Shown: positions 28,488-36,262 of the stretch, in pieces | Position numbering within the stretch: position 1 is the first letter of the stretch | Layout: each line of letters opens with the position of its first letter | Source of the DNA: Spirochaetota bacterium | Lineage (GTDB): Bacteria > Spirochaetota > Spirochaetia > Sphaerochaetales > Sphaerochaetaceae | Length of the DNA stretch: 64,000 nucleotides | Reading direction: 5' to 3' | Assembly (NCBI GenBank): GCA_918298275.1 | Contig: CAKJZO010000024.1 | Location: 1-64,000, forward strand | Translations under genes and position numbers: made by a program | Notes under the pieces: model-generated | Seen by the model: the letters and a program-made list of their open reading frames with translations, nothing else | Database searches by the model: none | Told to the model about the DNA's origin: nothing

Positions 28488-28802
28488 TTACCGATTGTAT
28501 TTTATTCCTGCAGTTATCAGAAGTACTAACCCGGCAACAAAACAAGCAGCAAAACAAAAGAAACTATAAGGCGAACTTGTAAGCCAGAGAATTGCAGCTG
28601 ATATCAATAAACCGATGCCTATCAAAACAAGGCCGATTCCGGAAAGCTTACAGAAGGCAGCTTTGTTTTCTTCTGAGACTTTTTCCACATGATAATCATG
28701 CATCAAAGTAATCTTTTGCTTTTTCCATATGAGCCATCCCAGAATCGAAATGGTAATACCAACTACTGCAAAAATCAGTATTCCGAAAATTTCCCCAATC
28801 AT
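28488..28802 (-). CDS. Small membrane protein, DUF3784-like
   Basis: Three predicted TM segments; ILGWLIWKKQKITLMHDYHVEKVSEENKAAFCKLSGIGL pattern. Confidence 0.65.
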   Translation of the reverse strand: MIGEIFGILIFAVVGITISILGWLIWKKQKITLMHDYHVEKVSEENKAAFCKLSGIGLVLIGIGLLISAAILWLTSSPYSFFCFAACFVAGLVLLITAGIKYNR

Positions 28803-28847
28803 TTTTAACCTCAATCTTCATTTATCATTATTACAGACAAATCATAT

Positions 28848-30629
28848 TTAAAGTGTTACTGTAAAGACATTAATGCCAAGAGTAAGCTGATATTCGGTCT
28901 CTTTGACTATACCCATGAACACACGGATGCTGAGGCTCTTCGGAGAGTCATCCTGCGGGTTGACGAGTTCCGAACGCTCCTTCGGGTTGAAGGGTTTGCA
29001 GTCGTCCTTCAGGCTGATGAAGATCTTCTCTCCCTTGTGCACTACATGGACCTCTATCCTATGCTTCTTCCTATCAGCCTCGAATCTGTCCTTGATGATC
29101 CCGAGGCACAGTTCCTCAACGGCAAGTGCGGAATACGTGGCCTTCTTCTTATCGATGTTACGCTCCTCGCAGAACTTCTGAATTTCCATGGATGTGTTGA
29201 CTGCTTCATCCAAGTTGTGAATGGTGACATCCAGGCATTCATCCTCCGATGCCCCGAAGTCTGCAGGAATGGTTACCCATTCCCGCAATGTCCTAGGCAT
29301 TCGTTTCCAGTAGAAAAGAGCATAGACCGGACCGACAAGAGCAACAATAGCATATCCGATAACCAGTGAAAGCAATACACCGTCGAGACCCATCTTCGGA
29401 ATAAGAAGCAGTCCGAGCGGAACCATGACGGCAACTCCTTCCATAACTGACATCACATTGACAAGGATGTTTCTGCCGATTGACTGGAAATAGTTGGAGA
29501 AAACTTGTGTTATGGTCTCGAAAACGAGGACTGCTGCTCCGAATTTCAGCGCCCTAGCCGTCAGTCTGTATACTTCCAAATCAGGATTCGGATAGAAGAA
29601 TCTCGGGACGTATGGTGAAATCAGGAAGACCAGAAGTGCAGCGCCGAAAGCTATTGGAAGACCTTTTGTGAAAACGGTTTTCATGATGGTGGTAATGGAA
29701 TGTGCATCCTCTTCCCCGTAGCTGACACTGGAAAGGATTCTTCCTGCAGATGCAACTCCTTTTCCGATGGATTCGAAGATCATCATGACAATTATGTATG
29801 TTGAAATGGCAGCGACGGAAATCATCGTCGGATCATAGGAAGCCAGAAGATTGTTGAAGACGCTGCTTCTGATTGAAGTAAGGAAAAACACCAGTGCATT
29901 TGGAAATCCTATTTTTACAAGAGGCCATAATTCTTTCCAATTGATTGACTTAAAGGAGAATTTGAGAGATGCCTTTTTCGTCAGGAAGAATACTGCTGTT
30001 GTGCCCATATAGATCCACTGACTAATGGATGTGGCAAGGCCGACACCCGCAATGCCTTTCTTGAGCACGGCGGCAAACAATAAGTCAAGGACAGTATTTG
30101 TTGCCAGCAACAGGGCCGTTGCATAATAATTGTATCTGTCCTGTCCTTCAAGGGAAAGGAATGTAGAGAACTGTGCACCGAGCACCATCGGAAGAAGACC
30201 TACCCCACGACCGATGATATATCCGGAGAGATCCCCGACAGCTTCCTGTGTAGCACCGAGTATAAGAGCTATCCGCGTGGAAAGTAGAAAGCTTATCAAT
30301 GCAGCACAGACCATCACCAGGAAAGTAAGGACGATGTTGAGAGAAAATACTCCTCTTGTTTTCTGGAGGTTACCGGAACCCATGTACCTTGCACAGAGAA
30401 CCTGTGAGCCTACCATCATTACGGCGGAGACTGCCAGCCAGATCATCGAAAACGGAGAATACAGGCCTATTACGCCCATGGCGCCTGCACCGATGAAGTT
30501 ACTGCTGACAAGGCCGTCGATCAGATTGTTGACTCCGGCAAGAAACATCATGAATATCTGGGCAGGAAGAACCCTGAAATAAAGATTGGATAGAAAACGT
30601 CCGTCCGACTGCAGGTTTGTCTTTTGCAT
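28848..30629 (-). CDS. MATE-family transporter with C-terminal RsbW/HATPase-like domain
   Basis: 12-TM MATE core; last about 135 aa soluble: KKKATYSALAVEELCLGIIKDRF...VHKGEKIFISLKDDCKPFNP... Confidence 0.82.
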   Translation of the reverse strand: MQKTNLQSDGRFLSNLYFRVLPAQIFMMFLAGVNNLIDGLVSSNFIGAGAMGVIGLYSPFSMIWLAVSAVMMVGSQVLCARYMGSGNLQKTRGVFSLNIVLTFLVMVCAALISFLLSTRIALILGATQEAVGDLSGYIIGRGVGLLPMVLGAQFSTFLSLEGQDRYNYYATALLLATNTVLDLLFAAVLKKGIAGVGLATSISQWIYMGTTAVFFLTKKASLKFSFKSINWKELWPLVKIGFPNALVFFLTSIRSSVFNNLLASYDPTMISVAAISTYIIVMMIFESIGKGVASAGRILSSVSYGEEDAHSITTIMKTVFTKGLPIAFGAALLVFLISPYVPRFFYPNPDLEVYRLTARALKFGAAVLVFETITQVFSNYFQSIGRNILVNVMSVMEGVAVMVPLGLLLIPKMGLDGVLLSLVIGYAIVALVGPVYALFYWKRMPRTLREWVTIPADFGASEDECLDVTIHNLDEAVNTSMEIQKFCEERNIDKKKATYSALAVEELCLGIIKDRFEADRKKHRIEVHVVHKGEKIFISLKDDCKPFNPKERSELVNPQDDSPKSLSIRVFMGIVKETEYQLTLGINVFTVTL

Positions 30630-30691
30630 GAATATGTCTCCTCACCCCTAGATTTGTGCAGTATTGCTGATACTGTACAATGTCTGTGTGG

Positions 30692-32287
30692 TCATCTCTG
30701 TCTGAGACGGTTTAAATCTATTTTATTGAATGAATTGCCCAGCAGAGCAATCTGGCACTGTAGGCAATAGTTGTTGACTGCAACCGTCAGGAATTCCAGG
30801 ATTGCATTGATCGAGATGATTATTGAAAGGGCTTCAGCCCTGATACCCAGCTGGGAAAAGAGGATCGAGAAGCAGACCGTCGTACCACCTATGACGGGCG
30901 GTGTTGCAACCGAAAGGATGAATGAAAGAATGAATGCGGCAAACAGCCAGCCCCATGTTACCTCTATTCCGACAAGATTCGCTGAAAAGAGGCTGCATGC
31001 GGTAAACACTATGCAGTATCCGGGACGGAACAGTATTCCTCCGAGGTTGTAAGAAAGCGGAGCGAAGTTATCGTCTACTCCCATGTCCCCTATCAGCGTG
31101 TTGATAGACGTAACGAAAGCAGCACCCACGCTGGCGCTCGAAAGTGAAATCATGAACGACGGAAGCAGTTTGTGTATGAAGGTACGGGCATTGACCTTCA
31201 GCTTGATGCAGACAACCATAGTATAGGCAAGCAGGATGACAGCCTCACCTATTGCGACTATGAGTATCAGCTTAGCATATCCGAGGATCAATGAACTCGG
31301 GGAAGACAGTACCTGCGTACAGATCATGAGTCCGACATATACGGGAATGAAACGGTTGAGATAGCCGTTGGAAAGAATCGCAACGGTATTAACCTCATCG
31401 AAGATTTCGGTAAGCCGGTCTGCTTTATTGCCCATCTTCAGCATGGCAATGCCGAACATAAGGCCGATTATAATTATATGTACGGAATTGAACTCAAGAA
31501 TCGGAGAAAGTATATTATTCGGCACGAAATCTATGATGATATTCCAGAAATCATAGAAATCTATCGACATGCTGGAAGACATGCCGAAGGTCATTCCTGG
31601 TACAAGCCATGCAGTGTTCAGCAATGTAAGTATAAAAGCTACAAGCAAAAAAGAACGAATCATCTTCTTGCCTATAGTGCTGAAGGTGGAAATATCGCCC
31701 AAACGAACGATTCCTAACGTTATAGATCCGAAACACATCAGGGTTGCCATGACGCATAGCAGTCCCGTGAAGGCATTGGCAACCGGCATGAGAAACTTTC
31801 CGGAAATATCAATTGCATAACTGGGTGCAAAGGCATTTATCAAAAGACCGATTACTGCACCGCTCACGATTCCTATGAGTATTGAGAGAATCTGACTGAT
31901 TTTCTGCTGTTTTGCAATCGTGAATGTTACGAGATTCGCACCGCCACGATATCGCCAGTCCATGTTCAGGGTTTCGGAATTGGCCATCAGCGAACCCATT
32001 ACCGAGAGGTCGGACTCATCCTTCTGTGCAAACGGATCGAGGCTTTCCCCTCGGACGCGCAGGGAAACCCGGAATGTGCCGAAGTAACTGGAAATCCTCA
32101 GAGAAGCCAGGGCATTTTCCGAAAGGAAATCCCTGTACTTGAGCATTGTCTCTTCAAGGAATAGACGAAGACGAAGAGCATCCTTCGAATCGATTTTTAC
32201 CTTTGACAGGATTTTTTCGGTTTCCTCGATAGCTTGGTTGATCGATTGAGTATCCAGAGAAAACTTTTCCCGCAATACCTTATCCAT
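30692..32287 (-). CDS. SLC1/DAACS-type symporter with N-terminal RsbW/HATPase-like domain
   Basis: N-terminal soluble DALRLRLFLEETMLKYRDFL...FRVSLRVRGESLDPFA...GANLVTFTI, then SLC1-like multi-TM core (ATPPVIGGTTVCFSILFSQLGI). Confidence 0.8.
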   Translation of the reverse strand: MDKVLREKFSLDTQSINQAIEETEKILSKVKIDSKDALRLRLFLEETMLKYRDFLSENALASLRISSYFGTFRVSLRVRGESLDPFAQKDESDLSVMGSLMANSETLNMDWRYRGGANLVTFTIAKQQKISQILSILIGIVSGAVIGLLINAFAPSYAIDISGKFLMPVANAFTGLLCVMATLMCFGSITLGIVRLGDISTFSTIGKKMIRSFLLVAFILTLLNTAWLVPGMTFGMSSSMSIDFYDFWNIIIDFVPNNILSPILEFNSVHIIIIGLMFGIAMLKMGNKADRLTEIFDEVNTVAILSNGYLNRFIPVYVGLMICTQVLSSPSSLILGYAKLILIVAIGEAVILLAYTMVVCIKLKVNARTFIHKLLPSFMISLSSASVGAAFVTSINTLIGDMGVDDNFAPLSYNLGGILFRPGYCIVFTACSLFSANLVGIEVTWGWLFAAFILSFILSVATPPVIGGTTVCFSILFSQLGIRAEALSIIISINAILEFLTVAVNNYCLQCQIALLGNSFNKIDLNRLRQR

Positions 32288-32304: not shown

Positions 32305-33021
32305 CTATTTCTCGTTCCTGAGTTTGTCCATGAAACCTGCGGTAATGATACCGGCAGGAAGCGCTATAACTGCAATTCCGAACAGCGATGACAGCATTGT
32401 TATTATACGTCCTGCAGTTGATACAGGATATATATCTCCGTATCCTACTGTTGTCAGGCTGACAGTCGCCCAGTAAATGGCATCGAAGAAATTACCGAAG
32501 GTATCGGGCTCAACGTTGAAGACTACAAGAGCCGAGATGATTATATAGGAGACAGCCAGGACACAAACTGCAATCAGCGGGGATTTCTGTTCCTTCACCA
32601 CATCGGAAATAAGGACGATGCTCTTGGAATACCTGAGCATCTTGGCGGCCCTGAGGACCCTGAATGCCCTCATCAGCCTGAGGACCTTGAACAACTTGAA
32701 GCTGGATGACAATGCGGTGAAAGACGGCAGAATGCACACAAGATCAAGCAATGCCATCAGTGTGAAAGGATACAATATGAATGATGCCCACCGTTTCTTC
32801 AGTTTGAAATCAGCAGTAATCAGCCTGAAAAAGTAATCGATGATGAAGATCACAACCGAAGCCCATTCCATCACATTGAAGAACGGATAGGTCTTCTTGA
32901 ATGCCAACGGGAGAAGACTCATGGCAATCACTGCCATCATGAAATAGTCGTAGATGGAACTGGCCAGATCTTCTCCTGTGGATGCTTCGATTATCTCAAA
33001 CAATCTTTTCCTGAACTTCAT
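32305..33021 (-). CDS. Voltage-gated-like potassium channel
   Basis: S4-like KVLRLMRAFRVLRAAKMLRY and selectivity filter TVSLTTVGYGDIYP. Confidence 0.93.
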   Translation of the reverse strand: MKFRKRLFEIIEASTGEDLASSIYDYFMMAVIAMSLLPLAFKKTYPFFNVMEWASVVIFIIDYFFRLITADFKLKKRWASFILYPFTLMALLDLVCILPSFTALSSSFKLFKVLRLMRAFRVLRAAKMLRYSKSIVLISDVVKEQKSPLIAVCVLAVSYIIISALVVFNVEPDTFGNFFDAIYWATVSLTTVGYGDIYPVSTAGRIITMLSSLFGIAVIALPAGIITAGFMDKLRNEK

Positions 33022-33121: not shown

Positions 33122-36100
33122 ATGACCCGCCTGAAAAACAAAAAAGCATTGATCATCATTATCTGGCTGCTCTTCATGGCAGTTGCAAATGTCATATTCT
33201 TTTCAGTCGAGAACAGACTCAGCCTGTCCAAAGCCAAGGTAGAACTTAAGGAACAGGCCGACAGTATCCTCAAACAGATACCGAGCATCCTCGACAATGA
33301 GAAGTACTGCCTGGAAGAGTCGTCAAGGGTCATTACGGCGAAAACCAGGACAATGGCTTTCGAGTTGGAAAACTATGAGACTATCGAGGAGGCAACTCCA
33401 TTCATAGAGAGTTATATCGGAGTTTCAGGTTTGTCCAAGGTCTCTATCTATGACAGGGATGGAAATCTCATTTACGGAGATCCTGAGCAATCAATCCTGT
33501 CGGCAGAAGAGAGACAATTGGTCGGAATAATCCTTGATTCCAGATTATACAGCGGAGCGGTATCCTTCGATCACTATTATCGCGACAGCAACTCATTGCT
33601 TGATTCATTCATGCAGTACAGCGATGTGTTTACTTCAAATGTGGAGAACACTTACTGGGGAGTAGGAAACAGATGGCTTGTGATGGTGGAGACGGCCAAG
33701 AATGATTATCAGGAAGACATCGAGTCCTATTTTGACTGGAGAAACATCTTCTCGAGAATGAAGGTCGGAAAGGGAGGTTCCATCATAGTTATTTCCGCTG
33801 CAACAGAGGCTGTTGATTCCACTGCCATCAGCGAACTTGCCGGACTTGAGGTCTCCGAACTCGGGATCAAGTCAAAGGACGGCAAAGGTATTTCCGACTA
33901 TTCCGGCCTCAAGACCATGCTCGAGCAGAACGAAGATGTGATACAGCTGACAATTGCGGGAAAGAAATACTATACGATTCAGGTAGGAACCGGCAAAACC
34001 CTGATTCTTGCAATTCTTCCGGTGTCAGAAGTGCGGGCTGAGGTTACCAGCGCAACGGTCATCCTCGAGATGCTTCTGCTTCTCGTAACCGGTATCGGCA
34101 CCCTCTATGCCCTATTCTATTCAAAATCTGATGTCATCGCTGAGGAATCTGCGGTTGAAACGGATGAGGACATCGTAAAGAGCAAGAGGAATCCCAACAG
34201 GCAATGGAACCGCCAGCTTGCAAACAAGATCAAGCTAATCGGAATGATTTCCATCATCGGAGTCCTTGGACTCGGAATATACCTGGAAGCCCTCTCCTCC
34301 TATTCCGATACCTTTGACTACAGCAGGACAAAGGTCAACAATGTAGTTGATCTTCTTGACAACAACGATGTAGCCATCGAAAAGCTGAAAAGCTGGTTCA
34401 ACGAGGAATACCTCACCAGGGCCAAGATGGCGGAATGCGTCCTCTCCCATACCGACCAAGAGGTTGTCGATAAGGATTTCCTGAATAAGCTTGCGGATGT
34501 ACTTGCAGTCAAGGACCTCTACATTTTCGATAAGGACGGCAAGGAAGTCCTTACCAATTCGGAATACGACAAGCGTACTATAGATGAGTCTTCCGACATG
34601 CGTGTCGTTCTTGAAGGAAGACCCTACTACGTTTCAGAACCGCAGTATGACAGCGTTTCCGGTGAGGTTCTCCAGATGGTCGGAATCCGGCTGAAGGATA
34701 AGAACGGCATAAGCGGAGGAATGCTTGTTCTTGTTGCCGATTCGAGGGAACTCAATGCAATAAGCGACAAACTCGGATACAAGACCATTTTCGAGCAGAT
34801 AAGCCTTTCAAACGATTCCTTTGTCATGGTTATCAACGAGGACATGACGATCGAGTACATGGCAAACATCGTTGACGGAGAGTATATACATAGCTTCGAT
34901 ATGTTCAATTACACCGGAATGAGCGTTTCCTTGCTCGGTGTAGACGAAGATAAGCTCCGGGACAACTACAACGGCAATATGTTTGTTCTGAAGAACGAGT
35001 ACTTTGCTTCCGTCAAGAGAGACGGCAATTCATTCTTCCTTGTCATGCGGCCTCAGATCGGAATCGGTGGAAGCAATATTCTTCCCATAATCTATGCCAC
35101 AATCGTCACAGGTCTTTTCATGGCAGTGCTGGTCTGGATAGTAAGTGTGGACAAGGAAGGCGAAAACAAGAAAGCTCCGCGGAAAAGGAAGCATGCCGAA
35201 AGCTCTGTCGACACCGATGATGTAAGGGCGATGATGGGCAGCCTTCTCTACAAGAAAAAGCCGTATTTCGAGGAAAGGTGGCCCAACGAGTGCCGCAAAT
35301 GGCGTGAGAAGACACCTTCCGAAAAGTTCCAGACCGCTTGCGGATTCCTGCTTGTGATCATGTTGATTGCAATCTTCCTTCATGCCGTAATCGCCGGTAG
35401 GAATTCAATCTGGTACTACTGCATCAACGGTGAATGGGATTCGGGTATAAATCTTTACTCCATCACTACATGCGTGATTGCTACCTTTGCCCTTATCATG
35501 GCCAAGATCATCATCCACAAGCTTTTGTTCTACATTGCCAGGGCTGCAAGCCAGAGAGGTGAAACGATCTGTGATCTGCTTGACAGCTTCACTGCATATG
35601 CCCTGTTCATCATAGGTATCGTCATCTTCCTTGCCAATTTCGGAATCAACCTGAGAACCATAACCCTTACGGGCGGAGCAATCGGAGTCATCTTCGGTAT
35701 TGCGTGCAAGAATGTGTTCGATGATATTCTGTCGGGAATAATCATGACTCTTGAAGGAGTTGTCCATGACGGCGACCTTGTCGTCTATCAGGGCAGCTGG
35801 GGTGTTGTTCTCAGCATCGGTGTCAGGACTACAAGACTCAAGTGGTTCAATGACATTACCGTTGTCAGGAACAATGACTTCAAGAACTACATAACAAAGA
35901 AGCAGGAAGAAACAGCCAGGATCACGACTACCATAACCATTGACCTGAACGAGTCTCTTGAGCGTGTTGAATCAATTATTGCCAGGGAAATACCTGATAT
36001 CTCCAGGAAGCTGAGTAAATCGATTGAAGGCAACATCGAAATCCAGTACAGAGGTGTTGAGAACATCAATCTGAACGGTGTAGACCTATCCTTCGCCGTA

Positions 36101-36262
36101 CTTGTTCCTGGAATGTACTTCGGAGTCTTCCGCCAGTTCAACGTGGAGCTTAAGCTCATGTGCGAACGCAACGGTATCAACCTTGCGATGCAGCAGGTCG
36201 TAGTCAACAAACCGGTTGAGTACCCTTCCCTTGTTGTTGAACCAGAGAAGGCCGAGAACTGA
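33122..36262 (+). CDS. MscS-family channel with large N-terminal tandem Cache-like sensor region
   Basis: MscS core GINLRTITLTGGAIGVIFGIACKNVFDDILSGIIMTLEGVVHDGDLVVYQGSWGVV; two extracytoplasmic regions each bounded by TM helices. Confidence 0.85.
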   Translation: MTRLKNKKALIIIIWLLFMAVANVIFFSVENRLSLSKAKVELKEQADSILKQIPSILDNEKYCLEESSRVITAKTRTMAFELENYETIEEATPFIESYIGVSGLSKVSIYDRDGNLIYGDPEQSILSAEERQLVGIILDSRLYSGAVSFDHYYRDSNSLLDSFMQYSDVFTSNVENTYWGVGNRWLVMVETAKNDYQEDIESYFDWRNIFSRMKVGKGGSIIVISAATEAVDSTAISELAGLEVSELGIKSKDGKGISDYSGLKTMLEQNEDVIQLTIAGKKYYTIQVGTGKTLILAILPVSEVRAEVTSATVILEMLLLLVTGIGTLYALFYSKSDVIAEESAVETDEDIVKSKRNPNRQWNRQLANKIKLIGMISIIGVLGLGIYLEALSSYSDTFDYSRTKVNNVVDLLDNNDVAIEKLKSWFNEEYLTRAKMAECVLSHTDQEVVDKDFLNKLADVLAVKDLYIFDKDGKEVLTNSEYDKRTIDESSDMRVVLEGRPYYVSEPQYDSVSGEVLQMVGIRLKDKNGISGGMLVLVADSRELNAISDKLGYKTIFEQISLSNDSFVMVINEDMTIEYMANIVDGEYIHSFDMFNYTGMSVSLLGVDEDKLRDNYNGNMFVLKNEYFASVKRDGNSFFLVMRPQIGIGGSNILPIIYATIVTGLFMAVLVWIVSVDKEGENKKAPRKRKHAESSVDTDDVRAMMGSLLYKKKPYFEERWPNECRKWREKTPSEKFQTACGFLLVIMLIAIFLHAVIAGRNSIWYYCINGEWDSGINLYSITTCVIATFALIMAKIIIHKLLFYIARAASQRGETICDLLDSFTAYALFIIGIVIFLANFGINLRTITLTGGAIGVIFGIACKNVFDDILSGIIMTLEGVVHDGDLVVYQGSWGVVLSIGVRTTRLKWFNDITVVRNNDFKNYITKKQEETARITTTITIDLNESLERVESIIAREIPDISRKLSKSIEGNIEIQYRGVENINLNGVDLSFAVLVPGMYFGVFRQFNVELKLMCERNGINLAMQQVVVNKPVEYPSLVVEPEKAEN

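Follow-up and report, generated by a model that had tools for sequence, protein, structure and literature searches.

Partner switching is known mainly as a form of transcription control. SpoIIAB and RsbW phosphorylate a STAS protein, a PP2C phosphatase reverses this modification, and the unphosphorylated STAS protein binds the kinase. For several STAS outputs, we know of no target. The RsbU/RsbV/RsbW and SpoIIE/SpoIIAA/SpoIIAB systems share with the genes reported here a PP2C phosphatase, a STAS protein with a conserved serine and a GHKL anti-sigma-type kinase, and the folds of SpoIIAB and RsbW are the best matches of the fused domains discussed below. In contrast to these systems, the RsbW-like domains reported here are covalent parts of transporters and in most cases have lost the kinase site; among the ten neighboring genes scanned, no sigma factor was found. 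The GHKL-STAS phosphoswitches CapK/CapS and VapKSC are similar in having outputs other than sigma factors, namely a repressor and a toxin, but no transporter is involved and their GHKL domain is an active kinase (PMC13373217). Proteins of the SLC26/SulP family resemble the present ones in that a secondary transporter carries a domain of the partner-switching type; there, however, it is the C-terminal STAS half, whereas here the complementary RsbW half is carried by MATE, SDF, and ABC proteins. For the MlaB-MlaF pair, we know of no kinase or phosphatase. The STAS protein MlaB binds and controls the ABC ATPase MlaF, and its Ser/Thr site sits in the MlaF interface, where a phosphomimetic weakens binding (PMC7367683). 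This pair is a precedent for a STAS protein acting directly on a transporter, although MlaB binds the ABC ATPase domain and a short C-terminal extension rather than an RsbW-like domain (PMC7367683).

The DNA analyzed here (64,000 nucleotides, referred to as the window) corresponds to contig C24 in a draft genome of 1.83 Mb. On its minus strand, four genes follow one another in the order Kv-type channel, SDF, MATE, and DUF3784, separated by 17, 62, and 33 nt, respectively. The first encodes a voltage-gated-type ion (potassium) channel (32305..33021; Ion_trans 7e-26). It is followed by the gene of an SLC1/SDF-family transporter of 531 amino acids with an N-terminal RsbW/SpoIIAB-like domain (30692..32287) and by that of a MATE-family transporter of 593 amino acids with a C-terminal RsbW/SpoIIAB-like domain (28848..30629). 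The last gene encodes a small membrane protein of the DUF3784 family (28488..28814; 2e-7). The short intergenic gaps suggest that the four genes are located on one transcript, which is probable for the channel gene directly upstream of the SDF gene on the same strand and possible for the DUF3784 gene downstream of the MATE gene. Scans for promoters and terminators around these genes gave scores not above those of shuffled sequences. The order channel/SDF/MATE was not found in relatives, as the channel and DUF3784 genes were unmatched among the neighborhoods fetched. Divergently to this gene cluster, a protein of 1046 amino acids is encoded (33122-36262), which has a long N-terminal part and, close to the C-terminus, a channel domain of the MscS type.

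Both transporters were described in the original prediction as carrying a soluble domain of the GHKL anti-sigma type with a degenerate N-box, and each part of this description was borne out. In the MATE protein, MatE was matched over two stretches above the cut-off (7e-21, 75 bits), and the soluble C-terminal region (about residues 450-593) contains a match to HATPase_c_2 (PF13581) at residues 477-588 (7e-5). This match lies 4 bits below the cut-off in the Pfam search of the protein (23.2 bits vs. the curated 27.4) and reached 27.5 bits in the genome search. The SDF domain of the neighboring protein (7e-42, 144 bits, above the cut-off) covers residues 134-505 and is preceded by a soluble region (residues 1-128) without any Pfam match, including HATPase_c_2, in the window's protein. 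Among 55 SDF relatives, the N-domains of 12 matched HATPase_c_2 (best 2e-5), compared with three for the runner-up family, and hhalign aligned 112 columns of the SDF N-domain and the MATE C-domain (P 2e-5). No PDB sequence was matched by the SDF N-domain in a sequence-profile search, even at E 10; the link to solved anti-sigma factors therefore consists of the fold, Pfam, and profile matches.

The AF2 models of the SDF N-domain (residues 5-131 as modeled, 31895..32275, minus strand; pLDDT 84.9) and the MATE C-domain (residues 450-593, 28851..29282, minus strand; pLDDT 84.0, with the caveat that six of the 15 sequences in its alignment were intact RsbW-like rows) display the same order of elements, strand-helix-helix-strand-strand-(helix)-strand-strand. 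For both, the top PDB matches were UsfX, RsbW, and SpoIIAB, with a Z-score of 12.0 (UsfX) for the SDF N-domain, where other GHKL proteins reached at most 9.2, and of 14.7 to 12.9 for the MATE C-domain, which also matched SiaB (12.8) and LvrC (11.8) and, with Z-scores of no more than 8.5, phytochromes and histidine kinases. The predicted overall fold of both domains is that of RsbW/SpoIIAB-type GHKL proteins, with the anti-sigma branch ranking ahead of histidine kinases; unrelated folds were not obtained. The two domains were assigned from the models together with the PDB matches and motif columns (MATE) or the UsfX match and motifs (SDF). A chance resemblance of the SDF N-domain to RsbW-type proteins is ruled out by fold, profile, and Pfam tallies.

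The degeneration of the ATP site was compared in a single alignment, from which the motif counts of all domain classes were taken. The N-box asparagine and the G1 aspartate were present in 19 and 18, respectively, of 21 stand-alone or PP2C-fused domains and in 22 and 24 of 29 MATE-fused domains. The corresponding counts were 1 and 0 of 26 for domains fused to GlnQ-type ABC ATPases and 9 and 0 of 77 for SDF-fused domains. A pair of glutamates preceding the N-box and a C-terminal asparagine are nearly invariant in all classes. In the window, the N-box asparagine is replaced by glycine in the MATE domain, which has cysteine instead of the G1 glycine and a degenerate G2 box and has kept the adenine-binding G1 aspartate. 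In the SDF domain, lysine takes the place of the N-box asparagine and valine that of the adenine-binding aspartate. Because the latter is lost as well, ATP binding by this domain is expected to be negative. Judged by their sequences, the SDF and GlnQ classes are pseudokinases, and the MATE class is mixed, with the copy in the window among the degenerate ones. Three of the four MATE fusions in the genome kept the N-box asparagine, and some of the fusions with this residue may be active kinases rather than passive docks.

A scan of genome contigs yielded approximately 80 loci with SDF fusions in gut Clostridia (Lachnospiraceae, Oscillospiraceae) and Spirochaetales, the close relatives being labeled Spirochaetales from rumen and gut. 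Most matches are collinear with the query from about residue 1-10 to 530. In the host family, the SDF fusion was found in 14 genomes; five further genomes contain an ordinary SDF protein, in which the match starts only at residue 125. Three additional MATE fusions are encoded in the window's genome (contigs C81, C87, and C22), and MATE fusions are present in 11 other genomes of the family. A frameshift or assembly artifact, which would have joined separate genes, is ruled out by this recurrence in many genomes and assemblies. The two fusions are also found near one another in other genomes. A third class comprises GlnQ-type ABC ATPases of approximately 365-385 amino acids with an extra C-terminal domain resembling the SDF N-domain; in two members, this domain was matched by HATPase_c_2 (8.5e-5 and 5.7e-4). 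Genes for a GlnQ-type ATPase and a GlnPH-type binding-protein/permease are common in the SDF-fusion loci.

At distances of up to 10 kb from 75 SDF fusions, genes encoding STAS proteins were detected in 24 loci, PP2C phosphatases in 21, RsbW-like HATPases in 12, GlnQ-type ATPases with the extra domain in 25, and MATE-HATPase fusions in seven. In 24 of the 75 loci, some of them on short contigs, none of the scored domains was found within this distance. The PP2C genes were mostly located in the nearest 2.5 kb (17/22). Near the SDF fusions, 22 SpoIIE genes were observed compared with 1.17 expected from a density of 1.07 per Mb, an enrichment whose P is nominal because the loci are related to each other. 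In Lachnospiraceae, 13 MATE-HATPase genes, whose loci were chosen for their nearness to SpoIIE, are arranged in runs of genes for STAS, MATE-HATPase, an enzyme, PP2C, and an RsbW-like protein. By a rough count among the matches listed, approximately 13 of 22 MATE-sized fused open reading frames are located not more than 7 kb from SpoIIE. In the host family, SpoIIE is present in all 14 genomes with an SDF fusion and in 25 of the 125 others (Fisher 2.6e-9), STAS in 14/14 and 52/125 (1.3e-5), and SpoIIE in 12/12 genomes with a MATE fusion and 27/127 others (5.9e-8); these tests ignore phylogeny, and locus and genome counts are phylogenetically nonindependent. The STAS proteins match the anti-sigma-antagonist family and retain the S-S-x-G site. 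The ten neighboring genes scanned included neither a sigma factor nor a transcription factor. That genes for STAS, SpoIIE, and intact RsbW-like proteins repeatedly accompany the fusions, and that the two fusions occur close together in other genomes as well, supports the earlier suggestion that the fused domains may constitute a shared regulatory module.

In the operons of Lachnospiraceae that contain MATE-HATPase genes (L181-L192), a GH3-type amido synthetase or a GNAT enzyme is also encoded, sometimes together with an adenylation-carrier-reductase protein and a phosphopantetheinyl transferase. These enzymes hint at the export of a made product by the MATE protein.

Neither STAS nor PP2C nor SpoIIE genes were detected inside the window or beside the SDF/MATE pair, which rules out a functional pair in cis within the window. 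In the same genome, genes encoding STAS, SpoIIE, and a STAS-APH-HATPase protein are located on contig C51 and a second SpoIIE gene on C69. Since the candidate partners are encoded on other contigs, they would act in trans, from contig C51. The STAS-APH-HATPase protein (L009:4917-6488) comprises 523 amino acids and joins an intact HATPase_c_2 domain to a STAS domain and a kinase domain of the APH type; its gene adjoins those of STAS and SpoIIE.

The transport domain of the SDF fusions deviates from that of ordinary SDF sequences, which have the motif NMDG. In TM7 of the window's protein, LFRPG replaces NMDG, and NMDG was found in none of the 80 main-clade fusions among the motifs listed. Substrate and coupling may therefore differ in this clade, or the clade may be a sensor. 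The main-clade fusions (L079-L158) have LFRPG or IFMPG in TM7 and lack the TM8 arginine of ordinary SDF sequences; four more distant fusions of 550 amino acids retain NM[DN]G.

The computations show the fold of the domains, their homology, degeneration, and conservation, and their genomic linkage. We somewhat favor a partner switch with the transporter as output, in which docking of a STAS protein on the pseudo-RsbW domain sets the transport activity. The transporter-borne domains would descend from anti-sigma kinases of the RsbW/SpoIIAB type and would have lost much of the ATP and kinase site, and family topology places them, as we infer, on the cytoplasmic side. An intact RsbW-like kinase would phosphorylate the RsbV-like STAS protein at its conserved serine, and a sensor phosphatase of the SpoIIE/PP2C type would remove the phosphate upon a signal. 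The dephosphorylated STAS protein would then bind the pseudo-RsbW domain, its docking site on the transporter, and alter the transport rate, so that MATE export, SDF import, and polar amino-acid ABC import would be the outputs in place of a sigma factor. Binding of STAS, gating, the direction of the effect, and the substrates are all putative elements of this scheme. Because intact kinases lie beside many fusions and the sites of the SDF and GlnQ classes are dead, the most straightforward interpretation is that the fused domains act as receivers of the STAS protein. The lack of STAS and SpoIIE genes in the window and within 10 kb of many SDF fusions speaks against this scheme, as does the N-box asparagine kept by three of the four MATE fusions of this genome.

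The transporter could also be the input, with substrate or flux changing the fused domain, which would titrate or phosphorylate STAS and thereby signal transport to a transcriptional or other output elsewhere. The MATE-borne domains, some of which could still be kinases given the retention of the N-box asparagine (22/29) and the aspartate (24/29), are compatible with such a transceptor, and the lack of NMDG in all 80 main-clade SDF fusions could fit a sensor that has ceased to transport. However, the ATP site is lost in the SDF- and GlnQ-borne domains, intact kinases adjoin many fusions, the usual sensor input is already supplied by SpoIIE proteins, and the adjacent genes scanned include neither a sigma nor a transcription factor, which makes this explanation unlikely in our view. 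A still smaller probability is assigned to a domain that acts without a STAS partner, either by binding ATP or ADP or only by a role in stability or oligomerization, and sets the activity according to the energy charge. It would account for the GHKL fold and for the adenine-binding aspartate kept in the MATE domain, but this residue occurs in 0/77 SDF and 0/26 GlnQ domains, and such a domain would offer no explanation for the linkage to STAS and SpoIIE.

SpoIIAB requires its ATP site for sigma binding. A conventional anti-sigma factor anchored to a transporter, which would sequester a sigma factor at the membrane, is suggested by the nearest solved folds, as these belong to sigma-binding anti-sigma factors. 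The ATP site is, however, missing in two of the three transporter classes, no sigma factor gene was present among the neighbors scanned, and the fusions occur in multiple copies per genome, so that we consider a tethered anti-sigma factor very improbable.

With regard to the output reading, in which STAS acts on the transporter, chances appear about even that the fusions represent a widespread class of partner switching in gut Bacillota and Spirochaetota, in which pseudo-RsbW domains on SDF, MATE, and GlnQ-type ABC proteins let STAS and SpoIIE gate import and export directly. The component parts are known; no description of these fusions or of their combination was found in the open-access literature searched, and an earlier description elsewhere is possible. 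If the proposal holds true, a STAS-binding domain in transporters would be a direct post-translational output of partner switching, the sensor phosphatases of abundant gut bacteria would be linked to the uptake of nutrients and to export, and the complementary STAS half carried by SLC26 transporters would be explained.

Some single loci deviate from the common architecture. In several genomes of Lachnospiraceae (L105:7439-9009, L106:12223-13685, L107, and L108), the second of two tandem SDF-fusion copies seems to be broken into pieces. A MATE protein adjoining an SDF fusion (L149:11634-13385) has a C-terminal domain that is nearer to the GlnQ type than to the usual MATE-type module. In another locus, the N-terminal part of a second SDF-like open reading frame next to an SDF fusion (L081:8316-9962) scores as HATPase and not as the usual SDF N-domain.
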